This document shows positions 21,111-36,451 of a stretch of 64,000 bases of DNA, piece after piece (within the stretch, counting starts at the first letter, position 1; the number at the start of each line of letters is the position of its first letter). The notes under the pieces are model-generated. The model saw only the letters and a program-made list of their open reading frames with translations. It had not been told where the DNA came from and ran no database searches. The stretch lies in contig NZ_CP047898.1 in the NCBI RefSeq assembly GCF_009911795.1, positions 1 through 64,000 on the forward strand, in the 5' to 3' direction. Origin of the DNA: Pseudarthrobacter psychrotolerans (GTDB taxonomy: Bacteria > Actinomycetota > Actinomycetes > Actinomycetales > Micrococcaceae). Both the position numbers and the translations under genes were made by a program.

Positions 21111-21183
21111 TCCTCCTTAGCTCAATTGGCAGAGCATTCGACTGTTAATCGAAGGGTTGCTGGTTCAAGTCCAGCAGGAGGAG
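21111..21183 (+). tRNA. tRNA-Asn (anticodon GTT)
   Basis: A full 73-nt cloverleaf: acceptor arms TCCTCCT (21111-21117) and AGGAGGA (21176-21182) pair perfectly and G at 21183 is the discriminator. The D-arm is GCTCAATTGGCAGAGC, the anticodon loop reads CTGTTAA with anticodon GTT, and the T-arm is GCTGGTTCAAGTCCAGC. CCA is not encoded. The mobile element that begins just downstream suggests that its 3' end served as the integration site. Confidence 0.95.
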
Positions 21184-21832: not shown

Positions 21833-22716
21833 GTGCGTCTGTTGAGATTGTCGAGGACACCGAGGAAGATGTTCTGGAAGCGTCTGATGCGCGGGAGCTG
21901 ACCCGGCAGATCAGGGTTGCTCTTGAGCATTCGTACACATTGATCATTGCGGCATACCGCGGGAGAGCGTGGTCGCCGATGGGCTATAGCTCCTGGGATG
22001 CGTACTGCCAAGGTGAGTTCGGAAATCTGGCACTCCAACCTCCTCGCGAAGAGCGTCAGAACGTGATCATGTCCATGCGTGAGGCGGGGATGAGCATTCG
22101 TGCGATCAGCTCGGGGACCGGGATCGGACGCGGGACGGTCGAACGCGAACTAAGCGAGGCGGCGCCAACATTTTCAGGTGTCTCAAATGGGACACCTGAA
22201 AATGAAAGCGAGTTGCCACGAGTGATCGGTACTGACGGAAAAACCTATCGCCAAACTGCACCTCCGCGTCCTCAACGCCCTGCGCAGACGTTGTTTGAGG
22301 ATGTTCCGTTGAGTGATGCGTTGTTGAATATGTCGCCGTCGGAGATGGGGATCGCGGCTTTGTCTCCGTCCGCGTTTACGTCGCGGCCGGCGCGGGAGCG
22401 GAAGGCTGTTGCACGGCGGTTGACAGGGTCGCTGGATTCGCCGTTGCCGCTGGTAATTCGCCTGGCCGGGGAGATCACATTGGATCCCACCACGCTGACG
22501 GTTGATGAGGCTTTAGATGCCGAGACGTTGACGGAGCTGGCTGCTGATGCTTCCCGCGGAGTCCTGGCTTTGTCCCATGTGCTGACAGCGATTGATGTGA
22601 AAGTCCTGTCGGGTGACATTGATGATTCGCGTGCGTTGACGGCCGTTGTCACGGACGCGGTGGATGAGTTGGGGAGGTTCCTGGATGCGCTGCACTCACG
22701 GAAGCGCCGGCCCTAA
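21829..22716 (+). CDS. Element-encoded HTH protein, ParB/KorB-like features
   Basis: A 295-residue protein with a GTG start overlapping the previous stop. Residues 20-70 carry LTRQIRVALEHSYTLIIAAY and WSPMGYSSWDAYCQGEFG. A helix-turn-helix follows at REAGMSIRAISSGTGIGRGT with VERELSE. Then the phrase VIGTDGKTY, which is common in actinobacterial plasmid and phage HTH proteins, precedes a variable middle and a helical C-end. The sequence suggests a DNA-binding protein for partition or replication control; no enzymatic motif is seen. Function not assigned. Confidence 0.62.
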   Translation: MSASVEIVEDTEEDVLEASDARELTRQIRVALEHSYTLIIAAYRGRAWSPMGYSSWDAYCQGEFGNLALQPPREERQNVIMSMREAGMSIRAISSGTGIGRGTVERELSEAAPTFSGVSNGTPENESELPRVIGTDGKTYRQTAPPRPQRPAQTLFEDVPLSDALLNMSPSEMGIAALSPSAFTSRPARERKAVARRLTGSLDSPLPLVIRLAGEITLDPTTLTVDEALDAETLTELAADASRGVLALSHVLTAIDVKVLSGDIDDSRALTAVVTDAVDELGRFLDALHSRKRRP

Positions 22717-22721
22717 ATGGA

Positions 22722-22753
22722 AACAGCCCCGGATTTCGAGCCTCGGGGCTGTT
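22722..22753 (+). terminator. Stem-loop after the HTH gene
   Basis: Arms AACAGCCCCG and CGGGGCTGTT pair perfectly around a 12-base loop, 6 bases after the gene's stop. No T tract follows, so it may attenuate, protect the 3' end, or act as a protein site rather than a simple terminator. Confidence 0.55.
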
Positions 22754-22871
22754 CACCAATCACTTAGAAAACAGTTGATTTTCACCAACGAGACCACTGT
22801 ACATGCGGTTGAGCCAGCAAGCAGGTTCCCGGCACTGTCCACTGCTAAATCTTTAGAGGGGGTGCGTCCTT

Positions 22872-23846
22872 GTGCGCACGACCGATCGTAAGGCTGACCG
22901 GATCAACCCGGATTCCATGGCTACGTTGTGGCTGACAGTGGGCCTTGTCGGGTTCCTGGCGGTGGCCTCGTTCATGGTCTCGTTCACGGGCCTGCACGAA
23001 GTGGCCGCGTGGGCCGGATTGCCAATTTGGCTCCGTTGGGCAGTGCCGGTGTTCATCGACGTTGCAATCCTTGCCTACACGCTGGCTGTGCTGATTCACA
23101 GACACCGCGGGGAGCGGACATGGGCGTCATGGATTTCATTGGGCGGCTTCACTGTGTTTTCCATGGTGGCCAATGCTGCCCATGCTCTGTCGATCCCGCA
23201 CCCAGACCAAGGCCAGCAGATCATTGGCGCGGCGATTGCTTCGTTGGCTCCGGTGGCCGTATTCGCGGCGACGGAGCAACTGGGCCGTTTGGTGATCGGC
23301 AGGCCGGACGCAGGGGAGTCAGGCGCCGCACTGCCCGCAGCCTCTATCGGCACTGTTCCGGACGACCCTGGAAGCGGTGGTGAGCCACTGCCTGGGCCTG
23401 AGCACTCCGCTGTGCCGGATGCATGGCTTGTCACCGAAGCCGCGGCTGGTCACGCAGCACCGGACTCCCTGCCGGTTACGCGGGAACAGCCTGCCGTGCC
23501 TGTGCCGGTTGGTGCCGCCGCTTTCCCGTCCACGGAATCAGTTCGCGCAGAACCGGCTGAAACCTCCAGCGATGAGCTGAAGCCCCAAGTCATTGTTACC
23601 CCTGTTCCTGCCCCTGCTGTATCGGCTCGTCCTTCGCTGAGTGTTGTCGGGCGCCAGCCGAAGACTCTGGACCTGGAGGAATGGGTGGGCGTCCAGCTGA
23701 GCGCCGGCACCCAGCCGACGGGCAAGGGTGCCTCAGAGTTCCTTGGGGTGTCCGAGCGGACCGGGCGGACCCGCCTGAAGGATCTGAAAGCCAACAAGCC
23801 GGGCCTGTTCGCCAGTGAAGTGTTGAAGGACGGTACCAACCCGTGA
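22872..23846 (+). CDS. DUF2637-family membrane protein with C-terminal DNA-binding-like domain
   Basis: A 324-residue protein starting at GTG 22872. The N-terminal third has about four membrane helices: TLWLTVGLVGFLAVASFMVS, LRWAVPVFIDVAILAYTLAV, SWISLGGFTVFSMVANAAHA and IIGAAIASLAPVAVFAATEQ, the DUF2637 pattern found in Streptomyces plasmid spread genes. A long Ala/Pro/Val-rich linker leads to a C-terminal helical block with KGASEFLGVSERTGRTRLKD, a helix-turn-helix-like segment. Related proteins are tied to plasmid transfer or spread. It overlaps the next start by 4 bases (GTGA). Confidence 0.72.
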   Translation: MRTTDRKADRINPDSMATLWLTVGLVGFLAVASFMVSFTGLHEVAAWAGLPIWLRWAVPVFIDVAILAYTLAVLIHRHRGERTWASWISLGGFTVFSMVANAAHALSIPHPDQGQQIIGAAIASLAPVAVFAATEQLGRLVIGRPDAGESGAALPAASIGTVPDDPGSGGEPLPGPEHSAVPDAWLVTEAAAGHAAPDSLPVTREQPAVPVPVGAAAFPSTESVRAEPAETSSDELKPQVIVTPVPAPAVSARPSLSVVGRQPKTLDLEEWVGVQLSAGTQPTGKGASEFLGVSERTGRTRLKDLKANKPGLFASEVLKDGTNP

Positions 23847-24210
23847 GCACCAAAGCTATGGCATGGGCGTTTGAGAAGGAGGTCTCCGCGGAGGTTTGGG
23901 TCATTTTCCTGACACTTGCGCACGAGGCAGACGATACCGGTCTTGTCGTCTTCAGTCGCGAGTACCTCTCGCACCTGACCGACGAGCCCCCGGGCGGGTC
24001 GAGGCCGCTCTGACAGAGCTGAGAGGGAAGGGGTTGGCGACAAGCACATCCGTGCCGGACAACGCTGCCGGGGAGGACGCCCGTTTCGACCAGGCGTTAC
24101 GTCTGCAGCTCGGCAGTTCCGCCCATGAAAAGGCCGTCCCCCCGGAATTTCTTGATGAGATCAACGCAGACCGAGCCCGCCGACGAGCACAGATCGGAGG
24201 CATCCAGTGA
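23843..24210 (+). pseudogene. Winged-helix initiator-like protein, short paralogue (one frameshift)
   Basis: From the GTG at 23843: VSTKAMAWAFEKEVSAEVWV, then IFLTLAHEADDTGLVVFSRE. It resembles the start of the next gene (SSKALTWAFSKELRHGAKYV) and is a shortened paralogue. The frame is lost at about 23991-23997, where GGGCGGG seems to have lost a C from GGGCCGGG, and then continues RVEAALTELRGKGLATSTSV to the TGA at 24208-24210. Corrected length is about 122 residues. It may modulate the larger paralogue, but this is only inference. Confidence 0.6.
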
Positions 24211-25421
24211 GTTCGAAAGCCCTCACATGGGCATTCAGTAAGGAGCTGCGACACGGAGCAAAGTACGTGTTGGTGACAATGGCTGATGCGGCCGACGACG
24301 ACGGCTATCTCTTCCCCTCGTACGAGTATCTGGCCCACAAGACGTGCTTGTCTCAACGCTCCCTGGTGGCCGCTATCAAGGAACTGGTCGAGCTGGGGTT
24401 GGTGGTGTGCGAGCGGAACCACCACCAGGACGGCTCGCGGGCGGCGAACCTGTTCTTCCTGCTTCTGGAGAACAGGAAGCATGCGTCGCCGGTGTGGCGG
24501 GGTGCGGTGTCCACAAAGGAACGCAAGGCTCAAGCCGAGCGATTCCGCAAGGAAGCGTTAGCGAACCTGACCGAGCAAGTTCCGCAAGAAGCCAGTAGTG
24601 CAGGATCTGCACTTAGGCCCGATGAGGGGCCTGCAGGTGAGCCTTCCTTGGAGGAAACCAGTGGGCAAGTTCCGCAAGAAACCAGTAGTGCAGAATCTGC
24701 ACTTAGGCCCACGGGGCAGGGCAAAAACTCCGGAAAACCAGTAGTGCAGAATCTGCACTTAGGCTCCACCAAAGTGCAAAATACGTCGGACCTAAGTGCA
24801 AATTGTGTAAACGCCTCCTTTAAGGAACCTCATGATGACTTAAGTCATCATCATCAGTCCGGGCGCGAAACGGCACCTGCCGCTGAGGTCGTTCCGGTGA
24901 CGGTGATTGATGATGAGCCTGCGAAGCATCGGGGAGTGGACTTGGCCGGGCTCAAGCACCGGCTGGAGCCGGTCCTTGGCCCGTGCCGGTCCGAGAAGCT
25001 GGTCTGGGTCATCGATGAGGCGCTGTCCAGGGCGACGGCGAAGGTTTCAAATCCGTCGGCGTTCATCGTCAAGTGCGTTCTCAACGACCCGGACCGGTTC
25101 GCACCAGCACCGGCCGGTTCCGGACCAGCGGCGCCCGCTGCCGGCGGCGCAACGGCTGCTGCCGGGTTTGCCGTGGTGACGCGGTCCAGGGCCTTGCTGG
25201 GACCGGGCGATACCCCGTGTACGAAACCGGATCATGGCCAGTACGCGGCGGATCACTGCCCGGCGTGCCGGACGGAAAACCTTGTCGCCGAAACGGCTTT
25301 GGAGCCGGCACCGATGAGCGGGGATGAGCTGGCGGCGTGGCGGGCCGAGAGGGCCGCGAAGCGCAGCGGGCCGCGGGTTCTTGAGCGTCCACGCACGGTC
25401 TCCGGCGGTGTTCAGGTCTGA
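24207..25421 (+). CDS. Replication-initiator-like winged-helix protein with internal iteron array
   Basis: A 404-residue protein with GTG start overlapping the previous stop. Residues 1-90 form a HTH_36-type winged helix: SKALTWAFSKELRHGAKYVL, DDGYLFPSYEYLAHKTCLSQ, RSLVAAIKELVELGLVVCER. This is typical of phage and plasmid replication proteins. Residues 125-225 are a low-complexity linker whose DNA holds repeats (see separate entry). Residues 230-290 (LAGLKHRLEPVLGPCRSEKL, ATAKVSNPSAFIVKCVLNDP) look like a primosome/helicase-loading domain, followed by a possible zinc site TPCTKPDHGQYAADHCPACR. The layout recalls lambda O, whose gene contains the origin. Confidence 0.72.
   Translation: MSSKALTWAFSKELRHGAKYVLVTMADAADDDGYLFPSYEYLAHKTCLSQRSLVAAIKELVELGLVVCERNHHQDGSRAANLFFLLLENRKHASPVWRGAVSTKERKAQAERFRKEALANLTEQVPQEASSAGSALRPDEGPAGEPSLEETSGQVPQETSSAESALRPTGQGKNSGKPVVQNLHLGSTKVQNTSDLSANCVNASFKEPHDDLSHHHQSGRETAPAAEVVPVTVIDDEPAKHRGVDLAGLKHRLEPVLGPCRSEKLVWVIDEALSRATAKVSNPSAFIVKCVLNDPDRFAPAPAGSGPAAPAAGGATAAAGFAVVTRSRALLGPGDTPCTKPDHGQYAADHCPACRTENLVAETALEPAPMSGDELAAWRAERAAKRSGPRVLERPRTVSGGVQV
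24592..24800 (+). repeat. Iteron-like palindromic repeats inside the initiator-like gene (candidate origin)
   Basis: Three copies of CCAGTAGTGCAG-A/G-ATCTGCACTTAGG start at 24592, 24682 and 24738. Each has the palindrome GTGCAG-N3-CTGCAC (24598-24612, 24688-24702, 24744-24758). Reverse half-sites AAGTGCA at 24772-24778 and CCTAAGTGCA at 24791-24800 follow. The first two copies also share GCAAGTTCCGCAAGAA just upstream. Copies 1 and 2 are in the same reading frame, but copy 3 is 56 bases on and in another frame, so it is the DNA, not the peptide, that is conserved. Confidence 0.75.
24832..24851. repeat. 20-bp perfect palindrome beside the iteron array
   Basis: ATGATGACTTAAGTCATCAT equals its own reverse complement. 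It is AT-rich in an otherwise GC-rich gene and lies 32 bases after the last iteron half-site, as an unwinding or regulatory site of an origin might. Confidence 0.65.
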
Positions 25422-26251
25422 TGTCGGCAGGTCAGGGCAGGGGGATCACTGGCATGGAGACGCGAATCGCGGAGGCTGTCATGCATCCGAAGACGCGGGG
25501 CGCTGTGTGGAACATTCTGGCCGGTTTCGGGCTGGGGCAGGATGTGGACGACGTCGTGGCGGACACGGCGGAGTCGGCGTTGAAGGCCTCTGGTTCGTTT
25601 GATCCGGAGCTGGGGCATGTGCAGGGCTGGGTGCTGACGATCGCCAAGCGCCGGGCCTATGACCACGCGAAACGGGCCGGGGCCAAAGGCCGGCTGCAGG
25701 GCCGGCTGGAGGGTGAATCCGACGGGCCTGACCCGGCGTTGAATCTCGTGGAGGATGACTTCGCCCAAGAGGTTGTCGAGCGGTTGGCGGCCAGTGCGGA
25801 GTCCCGGCAGATCCTGGCTTTGACGGAGAAGCTGGTGGCTAATCCGGATTCGTTCCGCCGGGTCGCGGCGTTGTGGATGGTCTACCAGGGCAGCGTGCCG
25901 AAAGCCTCTGCGGCGCTGGGCATCTCGCAGGAGGCGCTGCGGGATTCCCGCCGGGAAGTCGTCCGGTGCGCCCACGTCGTCCGCAAGGCTGTGGCAGCCC
26001 GGTCCGCCGGGGACCCCGTGACCGTCGGGACGCTGCTGGGGTGTCTGCCGGTGGAGGGCAACGAGGACGGTTCGTGGGCGCGTGCGTTGTCCGTCGCGGT
26101 GGTCCGTGCCGGCGGGTTCGGGAAGGTCACTGCCGCATCGATGGCGGAGGTGACCGGGTACTCGCTGAACACCTGCCGGCAGTACGTGGTCGAGGCGCAC
26201 TGGCTCCTGCAGGTCGCCCGGACCGTCCTGGAAGGTGTTGAGACAGCTTGA
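25421..26251 (+). CDS. Sigma-70-family-like protein encoded on the element
   Basis: A 276-residue protein; its ATG overlaps the previous stop (TGATG). Residues 30-90 match sigma region 2: NILAGFGLGQDVDDVVADTA, ESALKASGSFDPELGHVQGW and VLTIAKRRAYDHAKRAGAKG. A helix-turn-helix at about 155-180 (MVYQGSVPKASAALGISQEA) is in the region 4 position. There is a further C-terminal helical section with SMAEVTGYSLNTCRQYVVEA, a second HTH-like stretch not usual for short ECF factors. It lies between replication-like and transfer genes and could direct RNA polymerase to transfer promoters. Confidence 0.68.
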   Translation: MSAGQGRGITGMETRIAEAVMHPKTRGAVWNILAGFGLGQDVDDVVADTAESALKASGSFDPELGHVQGWVLTIAKRRAYDHAKRAGAKGRLQGRLEGESDGPDPALNLVEDDFAQEVVERLAASAESRQILALTEKLVANPDSFRRVAALWMVYQGSVPKASAALGISQEALRDSRREVVRCAHVVRKAVAARSAGDPVTVGTLLGCLPVEGNEDGSWARALSVAVVRAGGFGKVTAASMAEVTGYSLNTCRQYVVEAHWLLQVARTVLEGVETA

Positions 26252-26307
26252 GCGGGTCCGGAAGCGAACCACCAGTGACAACACCGGCAACAGGCAACGG
26301 GGAGAGC

Positions 26308-26679
26308 ATGACTCTCAACATGGACGGCACCGGACGGCAGGAGGACGGATTCAGTCCCGGGCAGCGTGCGCAGCTGGAGGAGATGATGTCCGCCAAGCGT
26401 GCGCAGCTGGAGGAGATGATGTCCGCCAAGCAGCCGGGCAAGCGTGAACAGAAGCGTCTGGCCCGGCGTGCGGCGCGTCAGAGGATCCTCGGGGCCATAC
26501 AGGACACGGTGGACGCCGCGGCGCCGCAGGATGGTGCCACGGGCTTTGACCGGACAACGGGCAGGGGCAGAGCGGCGGCGTGGTTTTCACGCAGTGCCCT
26601 GACACGGGCCGTGCTGGGTATCGCCGTGATCGCCGTCATTTTGACGTGGTGCGTTGTGGTGTTGGGCGGCAACCGATGA
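26308..26679 (+). CDS. Small membrane protein with tandem repeat
   Basis: Start ATG 26308 is preceded by GGGGAG; an in-frame TTG at 26248 overlapping the prior stop is an alternative. The 123 residues hold a directly repeated AQLEEMMSAKR unit (helical, charged), a basic stretch KREQKRLARRAARQRI, and one C-terminal membrane helix AVLGIAVIAVILTWCVVVLG. Its ATGA overlap with the cell-wall hydrolase gene suggests it belongs to the transfer machinery. Family unknown. Confidence 0.6.
   Translation: MTLNMDGTGRQEDGFSPGQRAQLEEMMSAKRAQLEEMMSAKQPGKREQKRLARRAARQRILGAIQDTVDAAAPQDGATGFDRTTGRGRAAAWFSRSALTRAVLGIAVIAVILTWCVVVLGGNR
26365..26430 (+). repeat. Two perfect tandem 33-bp units
   Basis: Two identical 33-base units (26365-26397 and 26398-26430) begin CGTGCGCAGCTGGAGG and encode RAQLEEMMSAK twice in frame. 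Perfect identity suggests a recent duplication or slippage event. Confidence 0.8.
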
Positions 26680-27827
26680 AGATGCTTAGCCGGGCCGGGG
26701 GCGCGTTCTTCATCACGATCCTGTTCGCGGCGTCGCTGCTGGTCGCTGTCGTCCTCGGCGCGGTGTCCGGCGCCAGGGCTGGCGCCTCGACGGACCCGTC
26801 CTCGTGCGTGGCACCTCTGCCCGGGGCCGGCCTGGCCGCCGGTAAGGTCCCAGCGGAGTACGTCGAGGCGATCAGGGAAGCCGCGAAGGCCTCGGGTATC
26901 CCGGCGCCGATCCTTGCCGGGCAGCTGCGGCAGGAAAGCAACTTCAACCCCAAGGCCGTCTCCCATGCCGGGGCCCGCGGCATCGCCCAGTTCATGCCGG
27001 GCACATGGGCGAGCTACGGGCAGGGAAAAGACCCGTCCGACCCGCAGGCCGGTATCAGCGCCCAGGGGAAGTTCATGGGGGAGCTGCTGCAGCAGGCGAA
27101 GGCCTCGGGGTTCGCCGGGGACCCGGTGGATCTTGCCCTGGCCGGCTACAACGCGGGCTGGGGCGGGGTGACCGCTGTCGGCGGGATCCCGGACAACGGT
27201 GAAACCGCCCAGTATGTGACGCGGATCAGGCAGTTCGCGAACGAGTTCGCGGCCAAGGACGGCACGGACGCTGTCACCGCCGGCGACGATAAGGGTTCGG
27301 GGGACTGTGATCTTGCGACCGGCACGTCCAGCGGGAATGATGATTACCCCTTCAAGGACCTGCCGCACTGCGTCCTGAACGCCAATGGCGGCTACGCGGG
27401 CTGCCCGGCGGGGTCCCAATCGGAGTTCAACGCCTTCCACGGTGAGTGTGTGGACTTTGTGATGTGGCGGCTGAACCAGCAGTTCGGTGTGACGAAAGCA
27501 CCGTGGAAGATCATGAACGGCAACTTCCGTCCGGACGGCGGCGTCCTGGGTGATGCGCGGGATTACAGGGCAGCGTGGGAGAACAAGGGCTGGCCGGTGG
27601 ATAAGACACCCACCGTCGGGGCCGTGGTCTGGTACGGGCCCTCGAACGCGAATGCCTCCTCGGCAGGCTACGGGCACGTTGCCATTGTGAAGGAAGTCCT
27701 CAAGGACGGTTCCTTCATCGAGGAAGGCTATAACTTCGGGTTCCCGCCGGACGATCACAAGTACTACACGACGAAGCGGGCCAACAGTGCACCCGATAAT
27801 TTCCTGCACCTGCCCAAAGCCGGCTGA
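26676..27827 (+). CDS. Conjugation-associated cell-wall hydrolase: SLT lytic transglycosylase plus CHAP
   Basis: A 383-residue exported enzyme. N-terminal helix FFITILFAASLLVAVVLGAV acts as signal or anchor. Residues about 58-180 are a lytic transglycosylase: AAKASGIPAPILAGQLRQES (catalytic Glu), FNPKAVSHAGARGIAQFMPG and VDLALAGYNAGWGGVTAVGG. Residues about 255-370 are a CHAP amidase with the catalytic cysteine FHGECVDFVMWRLNQQFGV and histidine YGHVAIVKEVLKDGSFIEEG. It would open peptidoglycan locally for the transfer channel, like VirB1/TraG-type hydrolases of Gram-positive conjugation systems. Confidence 0.88.
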   Translation: MKMLSRAGGAFFITILFAASLLVAVVLGAVSGARAGASTDPSSCVAPLPGAGLAAGKVPAEYVEAIREAAKASGIPAPILAGQLRQESNFNPKAVSHAGARGIAQFMPGTWASYGQGKDPSDPQAGISAQGKFMGELLQQAKASGFAGDPVDLALAGYNAGWGGVTAVGGIPDNGETAQYVTRIRQFANEFAAKDGTDAVTAGDDKGSGDCDLATGTSSGNDDYPFKDLPHCVLNANGGYAGCPAGSQSEFNAFHGECVDFVMWRLNQQFGVTKAPWKIMNGNFRPDGGVLGDARDYRAAWENKGWPVDKTPTVGAVVWYGPSNANASSAGYGHVAIVKEVLKDGSFIEEGYNFGFPPDDHKYYTTKRANSAPDNFLHLPKAG

Positions 27828-27855
27828 ACCCAAGCCGGATGAACACGGAACGGAC

Positions 27856-28492
27856 ATGACCATGATGACGAACGAAACCACAGCCGCCCGGAAGCCCGAC
27901 CGTTGGGCAATGCCAGCTGCCGTGCTCGGCGCAGCCCTTGCGCTGGTGTTCCTGACCGGCTGCGGGGGCGGGGGCGGGCCGGTCGTGGACGTCACCTCAC
28001 CTCCGGAAACTGCCGCGCAGCCCACCGGAACGGTAACGGGGACCACTGGGGAACCGGCGCCGGGCAACGGGGCGGCGTCTGCGTCTGTATCGCCGCCGTT
28101 TACCGGCAATCCGGCCCGCCGATGCAGGGGCAGGGTGTCGAGACGGCCCAGCCGGCATGGAACGCTGATGCCGAACGTGCCGCGCTGGTCGCGGCCGATG
28201 ATGTGATGCGTGCGTTCACCGCCACCACCCTGACCTCATCCCAGTGGCAGGCACGGATCAAACCGTTGCTGACCCCCGGGCGCAGCAGGCATGGTCCCGC
28301 GCTGACCTCAAGTACTTCACGGCCACCTCGGTTACCGGCCAGCCGCGGCTGGATGAGGACCGGTCCAACCCGTACTTCGTATGGGCGAGCGTCCCGACGA
28401 ACGACGGCGACTACCGGGTACACCTGAACCGCCTCGAACCGGGCGCACCGTGGCTGGGAGACATGATCAGGCCGCTGCAGCTCAAACGCTGA
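27856..28492 (+). pseudogene. Lipoprotein of the transfer operon (two frameshifts)
   Basis: From the ATG at 27856 (after GGAACGGAC) it has the lipoprotein signal WAMPAAVLGAALALVFLTGC with lipobox LTGC, then a Gly/Thr/Pro-rich linker. After a base loss near 28115 it goes on GPPMQGQGVETAQPAWNADA and ADDVMRAFTATTLTSSQWQ; after another near 28278 it reads AQQAWSRADLKYFTATSVTG to PLQLKR and the TGA at 28490-28492. The corrected protein of about 212 residues has the shape of conjugal-transfer lipoproteins with a small NTF2-like exported domain. Specific partner unknown. Confidence 0.65.
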
Positions 28493-28519
28493 GACCCGCT
28501 TCACGCCCCATCCTCCACG

Positions 28520-28566
28520 GACGGTCTCTGCACCTGGCGCATTTAGCCGCCGGTGCAGGGGCCGTC
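28520..28566 (+). terminator. Hairpin between lipoprotein and membrane-protein genes
   Basis: Arms GACGGTCTCTGCACC (28520-28534) and GGTGCAGGGGCCGTC (28552-28566) pair over 15 bases with two G-T wobbles, and TTCTCTTGT follows. It probably terminates or attenuates the upstream part of the transfer operon. Confidence 0.55.
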
Positions 28567-28661
28567 TTCTCTTGTGCTTTGACACACGGCTGCGGGACAG
28601 GGCAATGAACCTTCCATAGACATGCCGGCAGCACAACAGTTTGCCGGCGGAAGGGAAACCA

Positions 28662-29282
28662 ATGTTTGAAGGCATCGCCACCGGGTTCAGCCAGCTTCCG
28701 CTGGCACCGGAACCGGTGAACCCCGACCAGTCACCGGATTATCTGGCGGGGCTCCGGGATTTCGCGGGACAGTTCCTGACCGGCTGTATCGTGCTGGTCG
28801 TCATCTCCGCGATCGTGTCAGTGACCTTGTTCGTGATCGGCAAGATGACGGCTCTTTCCAACGCCCAGGCCAAGTCATTGATGTGGTCCGGCCGTGTCTT
28901 CCTCGGTGCCGCGATCATCGGATCCGTCGGCGGCCTGATCTTCTGGGGCTCCGGTCTCGGGAAGTTCAACCTCATGCCCGCCGGGGCACAGCAGCCAACC
29001 GTCGAGATCACCAAAAAGCCGGCCAAATCGACGTGCGCAAGCAGGGTTGAACTAGGGGCGGGCCTGTTCAACCAAGATGACATTGCCGGAGCGGTGAAGT
29101 CGTTGCTCTCCGATGAAGACAGCGAAAAGTACAAGAACACGGGCAGCGTCATCTGGCTGCCAAAGGGACCCCAGTGCACCTCTGAGAACCATGTAGCCGA
29201 TCCGTGTTCGAAGGTTGAGGTCTATGCCGGGGGATCGCAAATCGAGGTAGCTCCCCGCAACACATCCGAGTGCAAGAACTGA
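28662..29282 (+). CDS. Small two-helix membrane protein, TrbC/VirB2-like position, with exported tail
   Basis: A 206-residue protein (ATG 28662 after AAGGGAAACC). Two membrane helices, FAGQFLTGCIVLVVISAIVS and LGAAIIGSVGGLIFWGSGLG, flank a short loop in the style of VirB2/TrbC pilins. It then carries an extra C-terminal domain of about 110 residues with four cysteines (STCASR, GPQCTSEN, ADPCSKVE, TSECKN), probably disulphide-bonded outside the cell. The next gene is a shorter paralogue lacking this domain. Likely a transfer-channel subunit. Confidence 0.66.
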   Translation: MFEGIATGFSQLPLAPEPVNPDQSPDYLAGLRDFAGQFLTGCIVLVVISAIVSVTLFVIGKMTALSNAQAKSLMWSGRVFLGAAIIGSVGGLIFWGSGLGKFNLMPAGAQQPTVEITKKPAKSTCASRVELGAGLFNQDDIAGAVKSLLSDEDSEKYKNTGSVIWLPKGPQCTSENHVADPCSKVEVYAGGSQIEVAPRNTSECKN

Positions 29283-29300
29283 TTGAAGGGTATGTATCTG

Positions 29301-29657
29301 ATGAGTGTTTTGACTGAGTTGTTGGTCTCCGTTCCGGCGGAGGGGATTGATCCGAAGGTCACTGCCAATAACACGGCTCCGTGGTTGCCGGTGCTGCGTG
29401 ATATTGCCGGTGGTGTGATGGTGACGTGCATCGTTTTGCTGGTGATCGTGCTGATTATCGGTGTTGTTCTGCTAGTGGCCGGGAAGCTGGGTTCGATGTC
29501 CGGGGCGCAGTCCACGGGCTTCATGATCCTGGTCTGGGGTTTACTGGGCGCCGCGGTGATCGGCTCCGTCAGCGGGCTGGTGTTCTGGGCTACAACGAAT
29601 TCCCTGGCGCCGGCACCGGTCGCCGCGGCCGCCGGTGCTTTGCTGGGGTTGGGCTGA
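29301..29657 (+). CDS. Small two-helix membrane protein, paralogue of the preceding gene
   Basis: A protein of 118 residues. The ATG at 29301 (MSVLTELLVSVPAEGIDP) suits the GAAGGG at 29284-29289; ATG 29292 is an alternative. DIAGGVMVTCIVLLVIVLII and GLLGAAVIGSVSGLVFWATT align with both helices of the previous gene (GCIVLVVISAIVS, GAAIIGSVGGLIFW). It looks like a pilin-type subunit without the cysteine-rich tail, so the pair may be a major and a modified subunit of the channel. Confidence 0.68.
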   Translation: MSVLTELLVSVPAEGIDPKVTANNTAPWLPVLRDIAGGVMVTCIVLLVIVLIIGVVLLVAGKLGSMSGAQSTGFMILVWGLLGAAVIGSVSGLVFWATTNSLAPAPVAAAAGALLGLG

Positions 29658-29661
29658 TTCG

Positions 29662-30729
29662 GTGAGGTTCGCGGCGCTGGCACCGATGGGGCCGGCAGAG
29701 GATATCCAGAAGTTTTTCGACGGCGGGATCCAGGGGTTCGCGGCGAGCGTTTTCGATGTGATCAAGAGCGCTTTCAGTTCGACGGACATGAACTCGAATT
29801 GGTGGGTCTCTGTGATCGGCGGGACGGTCAACACCCATGTCGGTGGCCAGGTCACCACGGTGGTGTATCCCGGCATGTTGACGCTTTTGGTGCAGGTCAT
29901 GGCCCCGGTGATGGTCATTCTTGTTGCCGCGCAGGTTGTTGTCAGTCTCTTCCGCTCTTCCACTGTCGGCCTGATCCGGGCCGGCGCCACAGCGGTGTTC
30001 GCGATCCCGGCGACCTACATTCTGGCCGGGATCATGTTCACCCTGATCCAGGTGATGGACAACATCTCCGTGTACATCCTGGCTGCCGGGAACAACGACG
30101 GCGAGGACGCGGTCACCACCACGGTGCTGGCGTTGTTCGGCCTCTCCTGGGATCCGGCCGCAAAGTCCGTGGTGCTGGATGAGAACTACCAGCAGTGGGC
30201 TCTGGCGAAAGACCAGAACAACCCGGGAGCGATTCTCGTCCCGGTGATCCTGATCTTCGTGATCTGGATCATTGCGCTTTTGCTGGCGGCGTTCATGGTC
30301 TTCCGGATGTTGGGTTTGATCGTGCTGGCCTCGTTGCTGCCGATTGCGGCGATGAGTCAGCCGCTGGAAGCAGCGAAGGGCATTTTCAAGGGCTTCGGCA
30401 CGACGGCTCTGGCGTTGCTGATAGCCAAACCATTGTCTGCACTGGTGCTGAAGATGGGGTTCGTGATCTCGGCGACGTCGAACACGACGTTCCAGTTTCT
30501 GGCCGGGATCCTGTGCCTGCTCATGGCCGCTGTCATGCCGGTGCTGACGATGAAGTTCATGGCGTTCCTGACCGGCGGGGCAGGGGACGGGATCATCGGT
30601 GGCGGCGCCGGGATCGGGTCCGAAGCCGGGCGCCGCTTCGAGCGTCACGGCGGGAGTGCGTTGCGCAGCACGCGGCAAATGGGTTCCAGGATCGCGCGGA
30701 TGCCGGCCCGGATCGGGCGAGGCAGGTAA
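29662..30729 (+). CDS. VirB6/TrbL-like polytopic membrane protein
   Basis: A 355-residue protein (GTG 29662) with about seven membrane helices, for example MLTLLVQVMAPVMVILVAAQ, VPVILIFVIWIIALLLAAFM, MLGLIVLASLLPIAAMSQPL and FLAGILCLLMAAVMPVLTMK. An amphipathic N-terminal part IQKFFDGGIQGFAASVFDVI precedes them, and a basic C-terminal tail follows. Position between pilin-like genes and SCO6880/VirB4 genes and its shape fit the VirB6/TrbL channel component of type IV secretion; sequence identity to the family cannot be proved by eye. Confidence 0.7.
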   Translation: MRFAALAPMGPAEDIQKFFDGGIQGFAASVFDVIKSAFSSTDMNSNWWVSVIGGTVNTHVGGQVTTVVYPGMLTLLVQVMAPVMVILVAAQVVVSLFRSSTVGLIRAGATAVFAIPATYILAGIMFTLIQVMDNISVYILAAGNNDGEDAVTTTVLALFGLSWDPAAKSVVLDENYQQWALAKDQNNPGAILVPVILIFVIWIIALLLAAFMVFRMLGLIVLASLLPIAAMSQPLEAAKGIFKGFGTTALALLIAKPLSALVLKMGFVISATSNTTFQFLAGILCLLMAAVMPVLTMKFMAFLTGGAGDGIIGGGAGIGSEAGRRFERHGGSALRSTRQMGSRIARMPARIGRGR

Positions 30730-30769
30730 TGAATACAACTAACGATTTTCGGGGAGAGGTGCTTCGCTG

Positions 30770-32419
30770 ATGAGCGCAGGCGTAGTAATGGAAGAAGAGC
30801 TCGGCTGGCATGACGTCAGGTTCGGGCGCGAAACCAAACGCGGTGTGGTGTTGGGGCTGGAAATGCACCAGCTCATCACCTTCGGTATCGCGATGGTGGC
30901 CATCGTGGTCACGGTCCTGGTGTTTGGCTTCCCGCTCGGCTGGCTGATCGGCGGGACCATGCTGCTGATCACCGGGCCGGTGTGCTGCACGAGGTTCCAC
31001 GGGACCTCCACGCTGCAATGGGGGCTCCGGTGGGTCGGCGGACGGTGGAGCAAGGGCACGGGCCAGGGGAAGTACCTGCGGGCGACCCGGACCGAAACCC
31101 CGCTGGATCTTGCCCCCGCGCCGGTACACACCCACGGTGCACTCCATGCAGCCCCGGACCCGGACGGGGAGCCTCCGGCCTACCGGTCAACGATCGGCAA
31201 GAAGGGCCAGATCGTGCCGGGAACACCGGAACGGTTCATGTTGCCGGGGGAGTTGAACGAGCTGCTCTGCTATGAGCTGCCCGGCGGGGAAGCGTTCGTC
31301 TATGACCCGGTGAACAAGTACGGCATCATCGCCGCGCAGGTCGAATCCATGAACGCTTTCGCGCTGGAGTCTGAAGACGAGCAGATCAACCGTACCGAGG
31401 CTTTCTCGTCCGTTTTGACCGCGCTCTCCACCCAGGAAGGCGTCGAGTACCTGCAGCTGACTGATCAGACGTCGGTGGTGTCCGGGGCGAAGATCCGGGA
31501 CTACTACAAAACCAAGGGCGCGCAGGCTCCCCGGGTGGTCCGGGACGGGGAACTGGTGCCGCTCGCGGGCGCGAACATCAACTCGTTCGCGTCCCACGCC
31601 TATGAGGATCTGGTGTCCAACGGGCGCGGCATCATGCACCACGAAGGCTGGGTTGTGGTCGTGTTGAGCCGGAAGAAGCTGGAGAAGTCGATCACGGCCC
31701 ACGGCGGTGGGCTCGCCGGATTCATGAGCCTCGCGGCGGGCACGATTTCCTCGGTGACGGAGTCGCTGACGCCGACAGGGACGGTGGTGCGGTTCTGGAT
31801 GAACGCACGGGAACTCTCAGCCTGCATCCGACGCGCAACCGACCCTGCCTCTGCGGTGGAGATCTCGGAGCGGACCGGAGCGTTTGCCGGTGTCGCACCG
31901 GCCTCTGCCGGGCCGATGGTTATGCTGCCGGAGTGGTCCACGCTCCAGACGGACACGGGCATTCACCGCACCTGGTGGGTTTCGGAGTGGCCACGGAAGA
32001 AGGCCAGCCTCGGGTTCATGTCCAAACTGGTGTTCGCCGGTGACTTCCGGCATTCCGTGACGCTCATCGCCAAGCCTTACCCGGTCAGTAAGGCCATGAA
32101 GGACATCACCACCTCCCTCGCCGATCACGATTCCGGGCTCGATATTCAGCACCGGCTGGGCCGGCCGATTTCCCGGGCGCAACGGCTGGAAGGAACTGAC
32201 CTTGAGTTCAGGGAAATGCAGCTCACCGACGGGTTCGGGGCCTTGAAGATCGGCGGCTACGTCACGCTCTCGGCATCGGACGCGACGGAACTGGAAGTGA
32301 ACAACACCAAACTGCGGAACGCTGCCGCATCGGCCCAGGTGGAGCTCCGGTGCCTATACGGGCAACAGGCCGAAGGCTTCGTCGCCTCGGCCATGCCGCT
32401 GGGCAGGGGACTGCTGTGA
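30770..32419 (+). CDS. SCO6880-family conjugation protein
   Basis: A 549-residue protein. The N-terminal LGWHDVRFGRETKRGVVLGL and two adjacent helices MHQLITFGIAMVAIVVTVLV / GFPLGWLIGGTMLLITGPVC are PrgI-like. A large cytoplasmic part follows (LPGELNELLCYELPGGEAFV, AFSSVLTALSTQEGVEYLQL, HRTWWVSEWPRKKASLGFMS, LGRPISRAQRLEGTDLEFRE). This is the SCO6880 family in actinobacterial transfer operons, which stands directly before the VirB4-like ATPase and is like the N-terminal half of VirB4-type proteins. GTGA overlap with the next gene supports a joint complex. Confidence 0.82.
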   Translation: MSAGVVMEEELGWHDVRFGRETKRGVVLGLEMHQLITFGIAMVAIVVTVLVFGFPLGWLIGGTMLLITGPVCCTRFHGTSTLQWGLRWVGGRWSKGTGQGKYLRATRTETPLDLAPAPVHTHGALHAAPDPDGEPPAYRSTIGKKGQIVPGTPERFMLPGELNELLCYELPGGEAFVYDPVNKYGIIAAQVESMNAFALESEDEQINRTEAFSSVLTALSTQEGVEYLQLTDQTSVVSGAKIRDYYKTKGAQAPRVVRDGELVPLAGANINSFASHAYEDLVSNGRGIMHHEGWVVVVLSRKKLEKSITAHGGGLAGFMSLAAGTISSVTESLTPTGTVVRFWMNARELSACIRRATDPASAVEISERTGAFAGVAPASAGPMVMLPEWSTLQTDTGIHRTWWVSEWPRKKASLGFMSKLVFAGDFRHSVTLIAKPYPVSKAMKDITTSLADHDSGLDIQHRLGRPISRAQRLEGTDLEFREMQLTDGFGALKIGGYVTLSASDATELEVNNTKLRNAAASAQVELRCLYGQQAEGFVASAMPLGRGLL

Positions 32420-33939
32420 AGCACATCGGAGGAAAATCGAACCGGCTGTCCGGGCTGGTCCCGGTCATGCTGGATATCTCCAACGGTTCCCGTCAGGCAC
32501 GGGCGCAGCAACGCCTGACCAGGGCCCGTGCCGTCGCGGCTGCGTCGGTTGAGACGGCTGGCGGGGATGACGGCTTTCCGCAGCAGGCATTCCCTACCGG
32601 CGGGAAGCAGCGCATCAACAATCTTCGCGGCGGTTTCCGGCTCCGCCAGCGCCCGTTCAGCGAGACGGCGTTTTCCTTTGCGACGGCGTACCCGTTCCTG
32701 GCCGGCGCGAACCTGGGACACAAGGGCGCCTACATCGGCGAGGACGTTTACGGCGGCGGGGCGTTCGTGTTTGACCCGTGGGAGCTGTACGAGGCGAAGG
32801 TCATCACCGGCATGTCGATGATCCTGATGGGCGCTGTGGGTTCCGGAAAGTCCACGTGCGCGAAGTCCGTGGTCTGCCGCCTGGTGATGCTGGGACGCAA
32901 GGCGTTGATCCTCGCGGACCGTAAGGGCGAATGGGATGTTGTCGCGCAGTTCCTGGGCGGTCACACCATCAAGGTCGGCCCGGGCCAGCCGGACCGGGTC
33001 AACCCGCTGGATGAGGGCATCCGGCCCTCGGTGACGCCGGACGGGGAACCGATGACGGATCTGCGCTGGGCGGCGATGGTGCGCGCCAAGCGATTGAATC
33101 TGCTCCAGACCATCGGTGAAATCCTGCTGGACCGTGCCGTGCAGGGCGCCGAACACACAGCCCTGTCGATGGCACTGGATCTGACGGTGGAGTCGGCTGC
33201 GCCGGGTGTGCCGACGTTGCCGGGCTTCATCGAGCACCTGCGGCAGATGAGCGTTTCCACCGATGGTTCACGCTCCGTTGCCGAAGCCGCCGAAAGGCTT
33301 CTGCACGCCTTTTCCCGCTGCACCCAGGGGGACCTGAAAGGCATGTTCGACGGCGAAACCACAGCGAACTTCGACCCCGAACTGCCGATCATCACGGTCA
33401 ACACCAAGGCACTCGTCGGCGCCTCGAAAGAAGCACGGAAAATCGCCTACGCCTGCACCGGGTCATGGGCTGAATCGATGGTCACCAACTCCGACTCCGG
33501 ACAAAGGCTCTGCGTCTACGAGGAGGGCTGGGACTCGGTCAGCGACGAAGCGTCCCTGACCCGGATGATGGAGGCGTGGAAACTCGCCCGCGACTACGGC
33601 ATCTTCAACGTCCTGATCATTCACAAACTCGGGGATCTGGACATTGCCGGGGACGCCGGATCGAAAATGGCCGCGATGGCACGCTCGCTGCTGGGCGATA
33701 CCACGGTGAAGGTCATCTACCGGCAGGAAACAGCCAACCTTGCCGTGACCGAGCGGGAGCTGGGCCTGACCCGGGCCGAGCGGGAGGACGTGAACCGTTC
33801 CGCCCAGGGAACCGGGCTCTGGAAGGTCGGCCCCTACCGGACGGTGAGCGTGAAAAACCAGCGCACCACCGCCGAAGTGCCGGTCTTCGATACCGATAAC
33901 AAAATGCGCTCCAACAGGGGCGGGGAGGTTGCGGCATGA
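32416..33939 (+). CDS. VirB4-like conjugation ATPase
   Basis: A 507-residue protein starting at GTG 32416. The Walker A loop is ILMGAVGSGKSTCAKSVVCR at about residues 136-155, followed by KALILADRKGEWDVVAQFLG. A Walker-B-like segment RLCVYEEGWDSVSDEASL uses Glu-Glu where DE is usual in VirB4. Late motifs are DYGIFNVLIIHKLGDLDIAG and MARSLLGDTTVKVIYRQET. It corresponds to the ATPase half of VirB4, its N-domain being supplied by the SCO6880 protein upstream. It powers assembly or transfer at the membrane. Confidence 0.85.
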   Translation: MKHIGGKSNRLSGLVPVMLDISNGSRQARAQQRLTRARAVAAASVETAGGDDGFPQQAFPTGGKQRINNLRGGFRLRQRPFSETAFSFATAYPFLAGANLGHKGAYIGEDVYGGGAFVFDPWELYEAKVITGMSMILMGAVGSGKSTCAKSVVCRLVMLGRKALILADRKGEWDVVAQFLGGHTIKVGPGQPDRVNPLDEGIRPSVTPDGEPMTDLRWAAMVRAKRLNLLQTIGEILLDRAVQGAEHTALSMALDLTVESAAPGVPTLPGFIEHLRQMSVSTDGSRSVAEAAERLLHAFSRCTQGDLKGMFDGETTANFDPELPIITVNTKALVGASKEARKIAYACTGSWAESMVTNSDSGQRLCVYEEGWDSVSDEASLTRMMEAWKLARDYGIFNVLIIHKLGDLDIAGDAGSKMAAMARSLLGDTTVKVIYRQETANLAVTERELGLTRAEREDVNRSAQGTGLWKVGPYRTVSVKNQRTTAEVPVFDTDNKMRSNRGGEVAA

Positions 33940-35762
33940 AAGCGATGGATAAAGGGACCCAGATGGCGGTCCTTGCCCTTGGCCTGATCGCACTGGTGCT
34001 CTATGCGCTGTACCTGCCGGGGCAGATCGCCGCTTCCTTCCGCTGCGGATCCTTCACCACCCTGCCCTCGATCCTCCAGCCGCTCGGATTCCTGAACCCG
34101 TCCAGCCCCGCCGACGCCTCCGTCTACGGGACCACGGCAGCCGGCTGCGGACCGGAGAGCGGGGCAGTCATCGTATGGATGGTCCTGCTCGTCGTCCTGG
34201 CCGTCGGCGCCGGCGTGACCGTATGGAAGCTGGTGCACGACTGGAAACTCTCGGACGAGTACTTCGTCAAGGACGTCATGGGCCGTGACGGGCTGGCCAA
34301 GATCAAGGAAATTAAGAACACGGTCGGGGAGAAGAAAATCCTCGAACGCGCCAAAAGCATCCGCCCCACCCTGGGCCGGCCGTCAGTGGAGGACGCATCC
34401 ATCCGCATCGGGCACGTCCTCTCCCAAGCAGTCCTGGTCTCCTGTGAGGAATCAATCGTCCTAGTCGGCCCACCCCGGTCAGGTAAGGGCTTCCACCTGC
34501 TGATCTCGGCAATCCTGGACGCCCCGGGATCCTGCATCACCACCTCGACCAGGGCGGACAACTACGCGGCCACCCACGAGCTGCGCTCAAACGGCGGGCC
34601 CTGCACGTTGTTTGACCCGCAGGGACTGACCGGGGCGAAGTCCTCGCTGAAGTGGTCACCGATCACCGGGTGCGAGCGGCCCGAGGTCGCAGCCCGCCGG
34701 GCCTCCTCGCTGATCGGCTCCTCCGGGCTGGGGAAGTCCGGGTCCAACCAGGAATGGGCCGGCGCAGCGATCTCCATCCTCCAGTCACTCCTGCACGCCG
34801 CAGCCCTCGGCGGGCACAGCGTTGACGAGCTGTACCTGTGGGGGACCGCTCCGACGACCGCGCGGACCGCGCAGAAGATCCTGCTCGAACACCCGGACGC
34901 CGCATTCGGCTGGGGCCAGTCGCTCAAGTCCATCCTTGACGGGGACCCGAAGATGCTCGGCAGCCGCTGGTTCGGCGTCGAAGGGGCATTGGCCGGCCTT
35001 GCCGTGCCGCTCGTGCGTGAAACCCTGAAACCGGCCGGCCCGGCGGAGGAACTGGTTCCGGCGAAATTCATCAGGGACCGCGGGACGCTGTACCTGATCG
35101 GGACGAAGTCCGGCGGCGGGGCCATGGCGCCGTTCCTGATTGCGATGATGGACGAAATCACCGAAACCGCCCGTGAAATGGCCATCCGGCTGCCGGGAAA
35201 CCGGCTCGATCCGCCGCTGTCGCTGGTGCTGGACGAGATCGCGAACATGTCCAGCTCCTGGCCAGGGCTCGTGACGCTGATGTCGGACGGCGGCGGTTTG
35301 GGGATCAGCCCGCTGGTGGTCCTGCAGTCCCTCGCGCAGGCCCGCGGCGGCTGGGGAGCGGAAGAAGCGCAGGCCGTGTTCGACTCGGCGACGGTGAAAA
35401 TACAACTCGGCGGTTCGGGCAACGAAAAAGACCTCGAATCGTTCGTCAAGCTCCTCGGCACCAGGGCTGTGGAGGAAGGCTCTGTCACGCACACCTCCGA
35501 CGGGTATTCCTCCAGCACCTCCAAGCGGGAGAAGGACGTCATGACCGTCTCGGAGCTGCGCCGGCTGCCGTTCGGCTATGGCCTGTTCGTCGGGCGCAAC
35601 GGCAGGCCTTTCCTGCTGAAAATGACGCGCTGGGTCGACCGGCCCGACGCCCCGCAGATCAAGGCCGGCATCAGGAAGTTCAGCAGCTCACTGCTGGTTG
35701 AACTGACCGACTCCACGGCCGCAGGAACGCAAGAGCGCATCAGCGAAGAAGTCCCTGGATAA
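33936..35762 (+). CDS. VirD4/TraD-type coupling protein (TraM-recognition domain)
   Basis: A 608-residue ATPase; the ATG overlaps the previous stop (ATGA). Two N-terminal membrane helices (MAVLALGLIALVLYALYLPG and VIVWMVLLVVLAVGAGVTVW) anchor it. Walker A is IVLVGPPRSGKGFHLLISAI at about residue 172-191 and Walker B LSLVLDEIANMSSSWPGLVT. LMSDGGGLGISPLVVLQSLA and SATVKIQLGGSGNEKDLESF are coupling-protein (TraD/TraG) signatures, and the TraM-recognition domain lies around this C-terminal half. It would bring relaxosome DNA to the channel; no relaxase gene is visible here. Confidence 0.88.
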   Translation: MKAMDKGTQMAVLALGLIALVLYALYLPGQIAASFRCGSFTTLPSILQPLGFLNPSSPADASVYGTTAAGCGPESGAVIVWMVLLVVLAVGAGVTVWKLVHDWKLSDEYFVKDVMGRDGLAKIKEIKNTVGEKKILERAKSIRPTLGRPSVEDASIRIGHVLSQAVLVSCEESIVLVGPPRSGKGFHLLISAILDAPGSCITTSTRADNYAATHELRSNGGPCTLFDPQGLTGAKSSLKWSPITGCERPEVAARRASSLIGSSGLGKSGSNQEWAGAAISILQSLLHAAALGGHSVDELYLWGTAPTTARTAQKILLEHPDAAFGWGQSLKSILDGDPKMLGSRWFGVEGALAGLAVPLVRETLKPAGPAEELVPAKFIRDRGTLYLIGTKSGGGAMAPFLIAMMDEITETAREMAIRLPGNRLDPPLSLVLDEIANMSSSWPGLVTLMSDGGGLGISPLVVLQSLAQARGGWGAEEAQAVFDSATVKIQLGGSGNEKDLESFVKLLGTRAVEEGSVTHTSDGYSSSTSKREKDVMTVSELRRLPFGYGLFVGRNGRPFLLKMTRWVDRPDAPQIKAGIRKFSSSLLVELTDSTAAGTQERISEEVPG

Positions 35763-35765
35763 GCC

Positions 35766-36164
35766 ATGGGTTTCTCTCTGGCCCGGAAGTCCGGGGCCCG
35801 GCGCCGCGTCTACACCGGATACCTGCGTTCCGGTGCGTGGGCGTGGCGCCGCACGCGCTGGTTCAGGGACTGCCGCGCCGCCGGGGCCGAACCGGCCTGC
35901 CAGGTCTGCGGCACAACCCTGGCCGTGGCGGGGACGCTGGATCTGCACCACACCAGCTATGACGGCGTCTACATCAACGACGACGGCAGCTACCGGGCCG
36001 AAGAGCCGGACACCGATCTGCTGCCGTATTGCAGGGAACACCACCAAGAACTACACAGGATCCTTGATGAACGACGAGGCGATTACTGGGGCTGGAACCG
36101 CCGGCGCGCGACCGCCGTCGTCACCCGGATCCTGACCCGTAAACATCACCAAAGGACACCATGA
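35766..36164 (+). CDS. HNH-endonuclease-like zinc protein
   Basis: A 132-residue protein rich in Arg. It has CQVCGTTLAVAGTLDLHHTS and LLPYCREHHQELHRILDERR: CxxC, LHH and CxxHH make a HNH-type (beta-beta-alpha-metal) site. Starts 3 bases after the VirD4-like stop. Such genes are common in phages and integrative elements, acting as nicking or packaging nucleases, but its role here is unknown. Confidence 0.68.
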   Translation: MGFSLARKSGARRRVYTGYLRSGAWAWRRTRWFRDCRAAGAEPACQVCGTTLAVAGTLDLHHTSYDGVYINDDGSYRAEEPDTDLLPYCREHHQELHRILDERRGDYWGWNRRRATAVVTRILTRKHHQRTP

Positions 36165-36451
36165 CCGATCCTCGCACCACCACCGGCACCCTGGGGACCT
36201 GCTGGCTCTGTGCACAACAAAGCAACCGTATCGAAAGCCACGTCGTTGACCATGACCACTACGAACTCGCCGCCTGCAACGGCTCCGTTGGCGTCAGTGT
36301 CGACCTCTGCCCGATGTGCCACGTCGCCGTGCACAAATGGATGCGCTCCAACGGCAGGCCCTGCACGCACGCGGCCGCCGACGCCCTCGACGCGATCTTC
36401 TACCGATTCACCAACGCACTGCTGCCCGAACCGCGGAAAGAGGAGCCATGA
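36161..36451 (+). CDS. Small HNH-like zinc protein
   Basis: A 96-residue protein overlapping its neighbours at both ends by 4 bases. TCWLCAQQSNRIESHVVDHD and VDLCPMCHVAVHKWMRSNGR give CxxC, DHDH and CxxCH, a metal site like the recombination endonuclease VII / HNH group. It repeats the theme of the previous gene with different sequence, so the two may work as a pair. Function unproven. Confidence 0.6.
   Translation: MTDPRTTTGTLGTCWLCAQQSNRIESHVVDHDHYELAACNGSVGVSVDLCPMCHVAVHKWMRSNGRPCTHAAADALDAIFYRFTNALLPEPRKEEP

Follow-up and report, generated by a model that had tools for sequence, protein, structure and literature searches.

A winged-helix initiator-like gene of Pseudarthrobacter psychrotolerans with a candidate iteron origin in its linker-coding part

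In Pseudarthrobacter psychrotolerans, sequence comparisons and structure prediction point to a gene that very probably specifies the initiator of plasmid replication and contains, in the part coding for the linker, an origin of its own. Phage lambda is the classical case of an initiator gene that includes the origin. The gene occupies 24207..25421 on the plus strand of the window (the whole stretch of 64,000 nucleotides analysed here) and encodes 404 residues comprising a winged helix, a long iteron-bearing linker, a helical C-terminal domain and a Cys/His motif.

Domains of the protein and repeats in the linker

The N-terminus of the product matches the HTH_36 family (PF13730) with E 4.6e-14 (52.4 bits, cut-off 25). 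The protein also matches PHROG replication initiation families, the best with E 5.9e-18 and the O-like ones (phrog_1032 and phrog_391) with 2.7e-17, and at the profile level it is a member of the HTH_36 "replication initiation O-like" group. In the AlphaFold model, whose mean pLDDT over the whole protein is only 59, residues 1–85 (24207..24461, plus strand) form a block with pLDDT 73–93 and a winged-helix layout (helices 3–11, 16–28, 39–46 and 50–62; strands 66–69 and 82–85). The recognition helix SQRSLVAAI (positions a1–a9, residues 49–57, encoded by 24351..24377) carries Arg51 at a3, Val54 at a6 and Ala55 at a7, and Arg51 is invariant across 18 aligned proteins. Residues 123–235 (24573..24911) form a linker that is predicted to be disordered (pLDDT below 50). 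It is followed by a helical C-terminal domain, residues 240–298 (24924..25100; pLDDT 83–92 for residues 241–300), with a putative role in replisome recruitment, and by the motif C338-x4-H343-x7-C351-x2-C354 (25218..25268), which looks zinc-ribbon-like by eye; in the 18 aligned proteins C351 and C354 are invariant and H343 is nearly so. A profile search of solved structures with the protein gave a best match of only E 0.12.

The linker-coding part contains three 46-nt repeats that begin at 24575, 24665 and 24721 (spacings 90 and 56); compared with copy 1, identity is 96% for copy 2 and 76% for copy 3. The earlier note, made by inspection of this DNA, had described a repeat unit of 26–28 bp; the repeats are real, but their symmetry spans 15 bp and has arms of 5 bp (GTGCA-N5-TGCAC), and copies 1 and 2 are conserved beyond 26–28 bp. 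The three iterons are GTGCA-GGATC-TGCAC at 24598..24612 and GTGCA-GAATC-TGCAC at 24688..24702 and again at 24744..24758. Iterons 1 and 2 share a reading frame; since the spacing of 56 is not divisible by three, iteron 3 lies in another one. The 64 kb contain no GTGCA-N5-TGCAC other than these three (24598, 24688 and 24744), and all five plus-strand GTGCA sequences in 24001–25600 fall within 24598–24796. With up to three mismatches allowed, GTGCAGNATCTGCACTTAGG has 3 matches against 0.02 expected, a number reached in none of 100 shuffles.

The iterons are followed by two inverted half-sites on the minus strand, AAGTGCAAA at 24772..24780 and TAAGTGCAAA at 24793..24802, where AAGTGCAAA at 24794 lies inside TAAGTGCA at 24793. 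A candidate unwinding element is an AT-rich tract at 24764..24858 with a GC content of 0.42 versus 0.62 for the gene; only 0.03% of the 95-bp windows in 22293–37276 are as low or lower. Within the tract lies the perfect 20-bp palindrome ATGATGACTTAAGTCATCAT (24832..24851), the sole perfect even palindrome of at least 14 bp in the initiator gene. The earlier description of three GTGCAG-N3-CTGCAC repeats, two inverted half-sites and a 20-bp perfect palindrome, all in the linker, is thus confirmed. No exact DnaA box in any of three forms was found in 23801–25500.

Synonymous-codon shuffling was used to separate repetition of the DNA from that of the peptide. The initiator gene has 40 out-of-frame repeat windows, whereas 60 synonymous-codon shuffles gave a mean of 0.1 and a maximum of 3. 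Thus, the repetition resides at the DNA level and peptide repetition is insufficient to account for it, in line with the proposal, drawn from the frame of the third copy, that selection seems to act on the DNA. A weaker and narrower test, which counts the largest set of 5-5-5 palindromes with the same arms, gave three for this gene, a borderline result (p 0.050, null maximum 4 in 200 shuffles).

Directly upstream, a small gene (23843..24210, plus strand) encodes a second, shorter winged-helix-like N-terminus, 44–46% identical to the start of the initiator. Its frame breaks after 56 codons in the window and is open for 122 codons in the plasmid pU41 (see below), and by eye its helix has no Arg at a3. 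The product is a possible regulator of the initiator.

Plasmid copies and Micrococcaceae relatives

The same genome has a second, 99% identical initiator copy on contig C2 (95,352 bp), and a 97% identical protein is encoded by pU41, the circular plasmid unnamed3 of Arthrobacter sp. U41. C2 is colinear with pU41 across its own ends and is therefore probably a circular plasmid. The window and C2 have in common, at 95.9%, a segment of about 15 kb (22293..37276, plus strand) with the initiator and conjugation genes, including those for a TraG/TraD-type coupling protein and a CHAP/SLT protein; nearly the same segment is shared with pU41 at 93–96%, extending to 37375 with a gap at 29037–29252. The MobF relaxase of pU41, the sole relaxase tried, has no tblastn match in the window, nor was the ParA-like protein of pU41 found there, and both are encoded on C2. 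Given these absences, the window copy looks like a 15-kb plasmid segment residing in the chromosome. The initial assignment of the gene to a conjugative element is therefore right as to the type IV secretion genes, but here it concerns a chromosomal segment in which the pU41 MobF and ParA-like proteins were not found.

Several features were recorded around the segment. A tRNA-Asn gene (21111–21184) lies just upstream, and no second copy of its region, as expected of an att-like duplication, was found in the stretches searched. Two adjacent tyrosine recombinase genes (39627–42289, minus strand) stand outside the shared segment, and a Mutator-type transposase gene (43180–43935) is located just past it. 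The chromosome contig, C1, ends with what looks like a third copy of the initiator gene. This copy was rejected as false: the final 20 kb of the contig match the window from 6424 to 26429 at 99.6% with indels and are an error-rich, untrimmed assembly overlap with the contig's own start, in which the gene is broken.

The gene is 97–99% conserved on pU41 and C2. The iteron arms are identical in the window, C2 and pU41, the only differing iteron base being 24604 in the spacer of iteron 1, and ATGATGACTTAAGTCATCAT is unchanged. There are 23 variable sites among the three copies; four of them (24591, 24604, 24636 and 24708) lie in or border 24592–24858, and none of the four is synonymous. An argument from conserved synonymous sites was dropped as too weak, other long stretches being equally unchanged.

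Two further homologues, P0002 and P0003, are 44–46% identical to the window protein. Their DNA was sought in plasmids, in genome and viral contigs and in Micrococcaceae genomes drawn twice, and was not found, so their iterons are deduced from the peptides. The full GTGCA-N5-TGCAC is encodable at four places in the linker of P0002 and three in that of P0003, against means of 0.23 and 0.18 for shuffled linkers, and none of 500 shuffles attained the observed numbers. Both proteins also keep the peptide HDDLSHH, which is encoded by ATGATGACTTAAGTCATCAT in the window.

More distant relatives were represented by 22 Micrococcaceae genes (L036, L040, L045, L046, L049 and L051 were left out, L040 being the gene of L048 and L051 that of L043), whose products are 21–26% identical to the window protein in the 14 that were aligned. 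Fourteen of the 22 surpass all of their 60 shuffles for out-of-frame repeats, and 15 have at least two same-arm 5-5-5 palindromes in the linker with one mismatch allowed; a synonymous-shuffle test for such palindromes is passed by 8 of the 22 (p ≤ 0.05), and several relatives have tandem peptide repeats. The arms are CGGCA, CGGAA, CCGCC, CCGAC, GCGAC, ACGCA, CGGTC or GTGTC, and GTGCA in L041. No linker 5-5-5 cluster was found in the remaining seven (L027, L028, L030, L037, L042, L044 and L048). The expectation that homologues keep the repeats thus holds for the DNA of C2 and pU41 and for the compatible peptides of P0002 and P0003; in the distant relatives it holds for the presence of palindromes in 15 of 22, 14 of them with other arms, and fails in seven.

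The GTGCA array is found in 3 of 395 Micrococcaceae genomes, namely that of the window, G497 and G414. The G497 array belongs to the gene L041 and lies within a winged-helix ORF. The two G414 arrays (L462 and L465; C1:1001408–1001463 and 1170384–1170439) are both outside winged-helix ORFs and represent repeated elements. Five gammaproteobacterial matches have no GTGCA iteron. The initiator gene of a Pasteurella plasmid (L182) has tandem 21-bp repeats at 2715–2816 with five semi-palindromes in one frame, which is another internal iteron type.

In-gene palindromes of phages and the recognition helix

A scan of 2.9 million viral contigs with GTGCAGNATCTGCACNTAGG gave three loci, all of them in the middle of winged-helix-like genes (L053 assigned by phmmer with E 2.6e-9, L052 and L054 by alignment with L053). 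A broader scan for arrays of two GTGCA-N5-TGCAC palindromes 15–45 bp apart gave at least 120 loci in viral contigs, as did scans for GTGTC and CGGCA, two arms chosen from the Micrococcaceae relatives; the samples are in scan order. Among the matches listed, the arrays lie inside a winged-helix initiator ORF in 84 of 120 cases for GTGCA (9.5 expected from ORF coverage), 90 of 120 for GTGTC (11.8 expected) and 80 of 120 for CGGCA (12.2 expected). ORFs of this kind were called solely with a domain HMM made for this analysis from 24 N-termini; L052–L054 among these had come via the iteron pattern, and the window protein, L041, L031, L033, L034 and L038 carry iterons of classes scanned later. Control palindromes of the same composition were located in a winged-helix ORF at 0 of 34 loci (0/5 and 0/29). 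The control arrays TGAGC-N5-GCTCA (L191–L219) are commoner (29) than the GACTG arrays (5) and may be operators of another regulator. For 36 of the 120 listed GTGCA arrays no surrounding winged-helix ORF was detected; by eye, some of these are in initiator-like genes, while others are in collagen-like repeat proteins or seem intergenic.

As in the window gene, the palindromes of the phage genes often occupy more than one frame: among the matches listed, this is the case for 41 of 84 GTGCA, 69 of 90 GTGTC and 53 of 80 CGGCA genes. In the 78 non-redundant GTGCA genes (the 84 listed phage genes minus six redundant ones), GC content dips below the gene mean at 0–20 bp after the last iteron in 85% and at 20–40 bp in 92%; the upstream dip is smaller, seen in 71% for the 20 bp preceding the first iteron.

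The identity of the arms varies with that of the recognition helix. With gapped helices left out, and among the matches listed, Arg at a7 is present in 54 of 54 distinct helices of the GTGTC class and in none of 127 others (0/69 GTGCA, 0/58 CGGCA). Arg at a6 is characteristic of the CGGCA class (48/58) and rare elsewhere (4/123; 1/69 GTGCA, 3/54 GTGTC). Arg at a3 is found in 69 of 69 GTGCA helices, 13 of 54 GTGTC helices and 51 of 58 CGGCA helices among the same matches, and the idea of a3 = Arg alone as a code was dropped because so many CGGCA helices also have it. After greedy removal of redundancy at 50% identity or more outside the helix, with two CGGCA rows left out, Arg at a7 stands at 0/43, 36/36 and 0/31, and Arg at a6 at 1/43, 3/36 and 27/31, for GTGCA, GTGTC and CGGCA, respectively. 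Exceptions for a6 are L025 and L029, which have CGGAA arms with Ser and Gln at this position, and the 10 of 58 CGGCA helices that do not have a6 = Arg.

Kinship among the domains was considered as well. Even domains that share as much as 72% of their residues outside the helix can have different helices and different arms (ARRTVADCL with GTGCA versus SRSTVIRSL with GTGTC). A quick tree of the domains, made with the helix columns left out, requires no fewer than 51 changes of arm class among its 136 rows. Few of its branches are supported; the independent pairs on these agree with a7 in five of five cases and number only two for a6, neither being significant alone. A prediction set beforehand, that genes with CGGTC arms should have Arg at a6 as well as at a7, held in 10 of 13 winged-helix genes; this combination occurs in 0/69 GTGCA, 3/54 GTGTC and 0/58 CGGCA helices. 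The 13 genes come from 59 CGGTC array loci (L467–L525), the other 46 lying outside winged-helix ORFs.

The Micrococcaceae genes led to a rewording of the a7 rule. In its first form, a7 = Arg with inner TC, it is contradicted by L026 (CCGCC), L035 (GCGAC) and L043 (CCGAC), which combine a7 = Arg with an innermost C and no TC, and the rule was therefore restated in terms of the innermost C. The set examined comprises the window gene plus the 15 relatives that have a linker cluster, the choice having been made on protein similarity, independently of the arm. In this set a7 = Arg goes with innermost C (5 genes) and another residue with A (11 genes), which makes 16 of 16 (Fisher p 0.0002, a value that ignores kinship; the wording is post hoc, as these genes were already known when the rule was changed).

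It is likely that the initiators are self-labelled DNA-binding proteins, each gene bearing its own target, with a modular code that would be readable from sequence alone and spans phages and Arthrobacter plasmids: Arg or another residue at a7 corresponds to an innermost C or A, and Arg at a6, less strictly, to outer CGG as opposed to GTG. The window helix has Arg at a3 but at neither a6 nor a7, as expected for GTGCA arms, which are those of its own iteron. The co-variation of helix and arms in phage and Micrococcaceae genes, together with this fit, supports self-recognition and a lambda-ori-like origin; it also lends weight to the early suggestion that the repeats are bound by the very protein whose gene they lie in. 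A search of open-licence papers found none on this helix-to-site code or on the GTGCA iteron.

Alternative readings, mechanism and known systems

The protein might bind these sites in order to regulate its own gene or to control copy number (operator, handcuffing or incompatibility sites), with the origin elsewhere on the plasmid. This is an unlikely alternative, although evidence of binding does not equal replication, a shorter winged-helix paralogue sits just upstream, and pU41 encodes a 317-residue protein with a weak, below-cut-off HTH_38 match as well as ParA-like ATPases. It sits badly with the AT-rich tract that adjoins the iterons on their 3′ side, an arrangement shared by the phage relatives and lambda, with the PHROG labels, which are those of replication initiators, and with the 20 scanned pU41 proteins, among which no other known Rep family was found in Pfam. 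The ParA-like ATPases could also be taken to suggest that the repeats serve in partition, as a centromere-like site (parS) placed in the gene by chance, and iterons can act as centromeres in some plasmids. We regard this as very improbable, since the arms track the helix of the protein encoded around them, the phage relatives have the same layout, and the ParA-like genes are located elsewhere on the plasmids.

The least credible reading is that the repeats merely reflect a duplicated low-complexity peptide linker, with selection, if any, acting on the protein. Copies 1 and 2 are indeed in frame and encode nearly identical peptides, and the tandem peptide repeats of several relatives point the same way. 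Against this stand the other frame of the third copy, the excess of out-of-frame repeats in the window gene (40 against at most 3) and in 14 of 22 relatives that also beat 60 shuffles, and the multi-frame palindromes of the listed phage genes.

An initiator with its origin in the linker-coding part thus remains the preferred reading, and it suggests the following scheme. A dimer of the N-terminal winged helix would bind each 5-5-5 palindrome; the arm centres are 10 bp apart, i.e., one helical turn, which suits two helices on one face of the DNA. The assembled iterons, helped by the half-sites, may then open the AT-rich tract 24764–24858, and the C-terminal domain may bring in the replication machinery of the host. 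Divergence of the linker peptide would be tolerated, so that the linker can host DNA sites. The chromosomal copy, with arms identical to those of a plasmid bearing the same sites, could titrate the initiator; this is a lead, and ectopic origins of lambda have been the subject of a study (PMC4488673).

The similarity to lambda, already pointed out in the earlier note, extends to iterons in the middle of the gene and in several frames, to 5-5-5 palindromes and to an AT-rich tract just 3′ of them. The lambda O gene has four iterons in several frames, the first being CCCTC-AAAAC-GAGGG and the others imperfect, and the GC content of the 40 bp following the last one is 0.225. The differences lie in the arms, in the actinobacterial plasmid host and in the gene neighbourhood: no gene for a P-like helicase loader adjoins the window initiator, and the next gene downstream is sigma-70-like. 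No sequence relation between the window protein and lambda O was detectable (BLASTP E 19; domain HMM E 0.06). The phage HTH_36 O-like proteins (phrog_1032, phrog_391) belong to the same domain family by profile, whereas the window gene resides on conjugative plasmids and a chromosome and encodes a C-terminal domain of its own and the Cys/His motif.

An origin inside the rep gene is known for RepA_N plasmid initiators. Fold matches of the N-terminal domain include 5kbj, 4pql and 4pt7 among the top ones, all weak (E 0.004–0.008, none at 0.001), and no RepA_N Pfam domain was matched in the window protein at E up to 1; any kinship with the RepA_N group would at most be one of structure. In published accounts, the lambda origin is placed within the O gene (PMC7466680), RepA_N initiators (pSK41, pTZ2162) bind semi-palindromic iterons through an N-terminal winged helix (PMC7145576, PMC8263062), and in PLE satellites the RepA_N domain and the origin co-vary (PMC8263062). 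The winged-helix N-terminal domain, the semi-palindromic iterons and the domain–origin co-variation of RepA_N and PLE RepA have their counterpart here. A further comparison is with the RepA proteins of mycobacteriophage prophages (Miko, Rachaly, Jeeves), actinobacterial initiators for which the authors suggest an origin beside or within repA; in contrast to the window gene, those authors report no repeated motifs for the region they inspected (PMC7157519).

The analysis adds a lambda-like arrangement that is present both on actinobacterial conjugative plasmids and, within one genome, in the chromosome as well, and evidence that in-gene 5-5-5 palindromes are common in a large initiator family and come with a readable helix-to-site code. 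Origin prediction, phage–plasmid incompatibility and the evolution of initiator specificity thereby become testable. If the code is true, origins would be predictable for many unannotated phages and plasmids.
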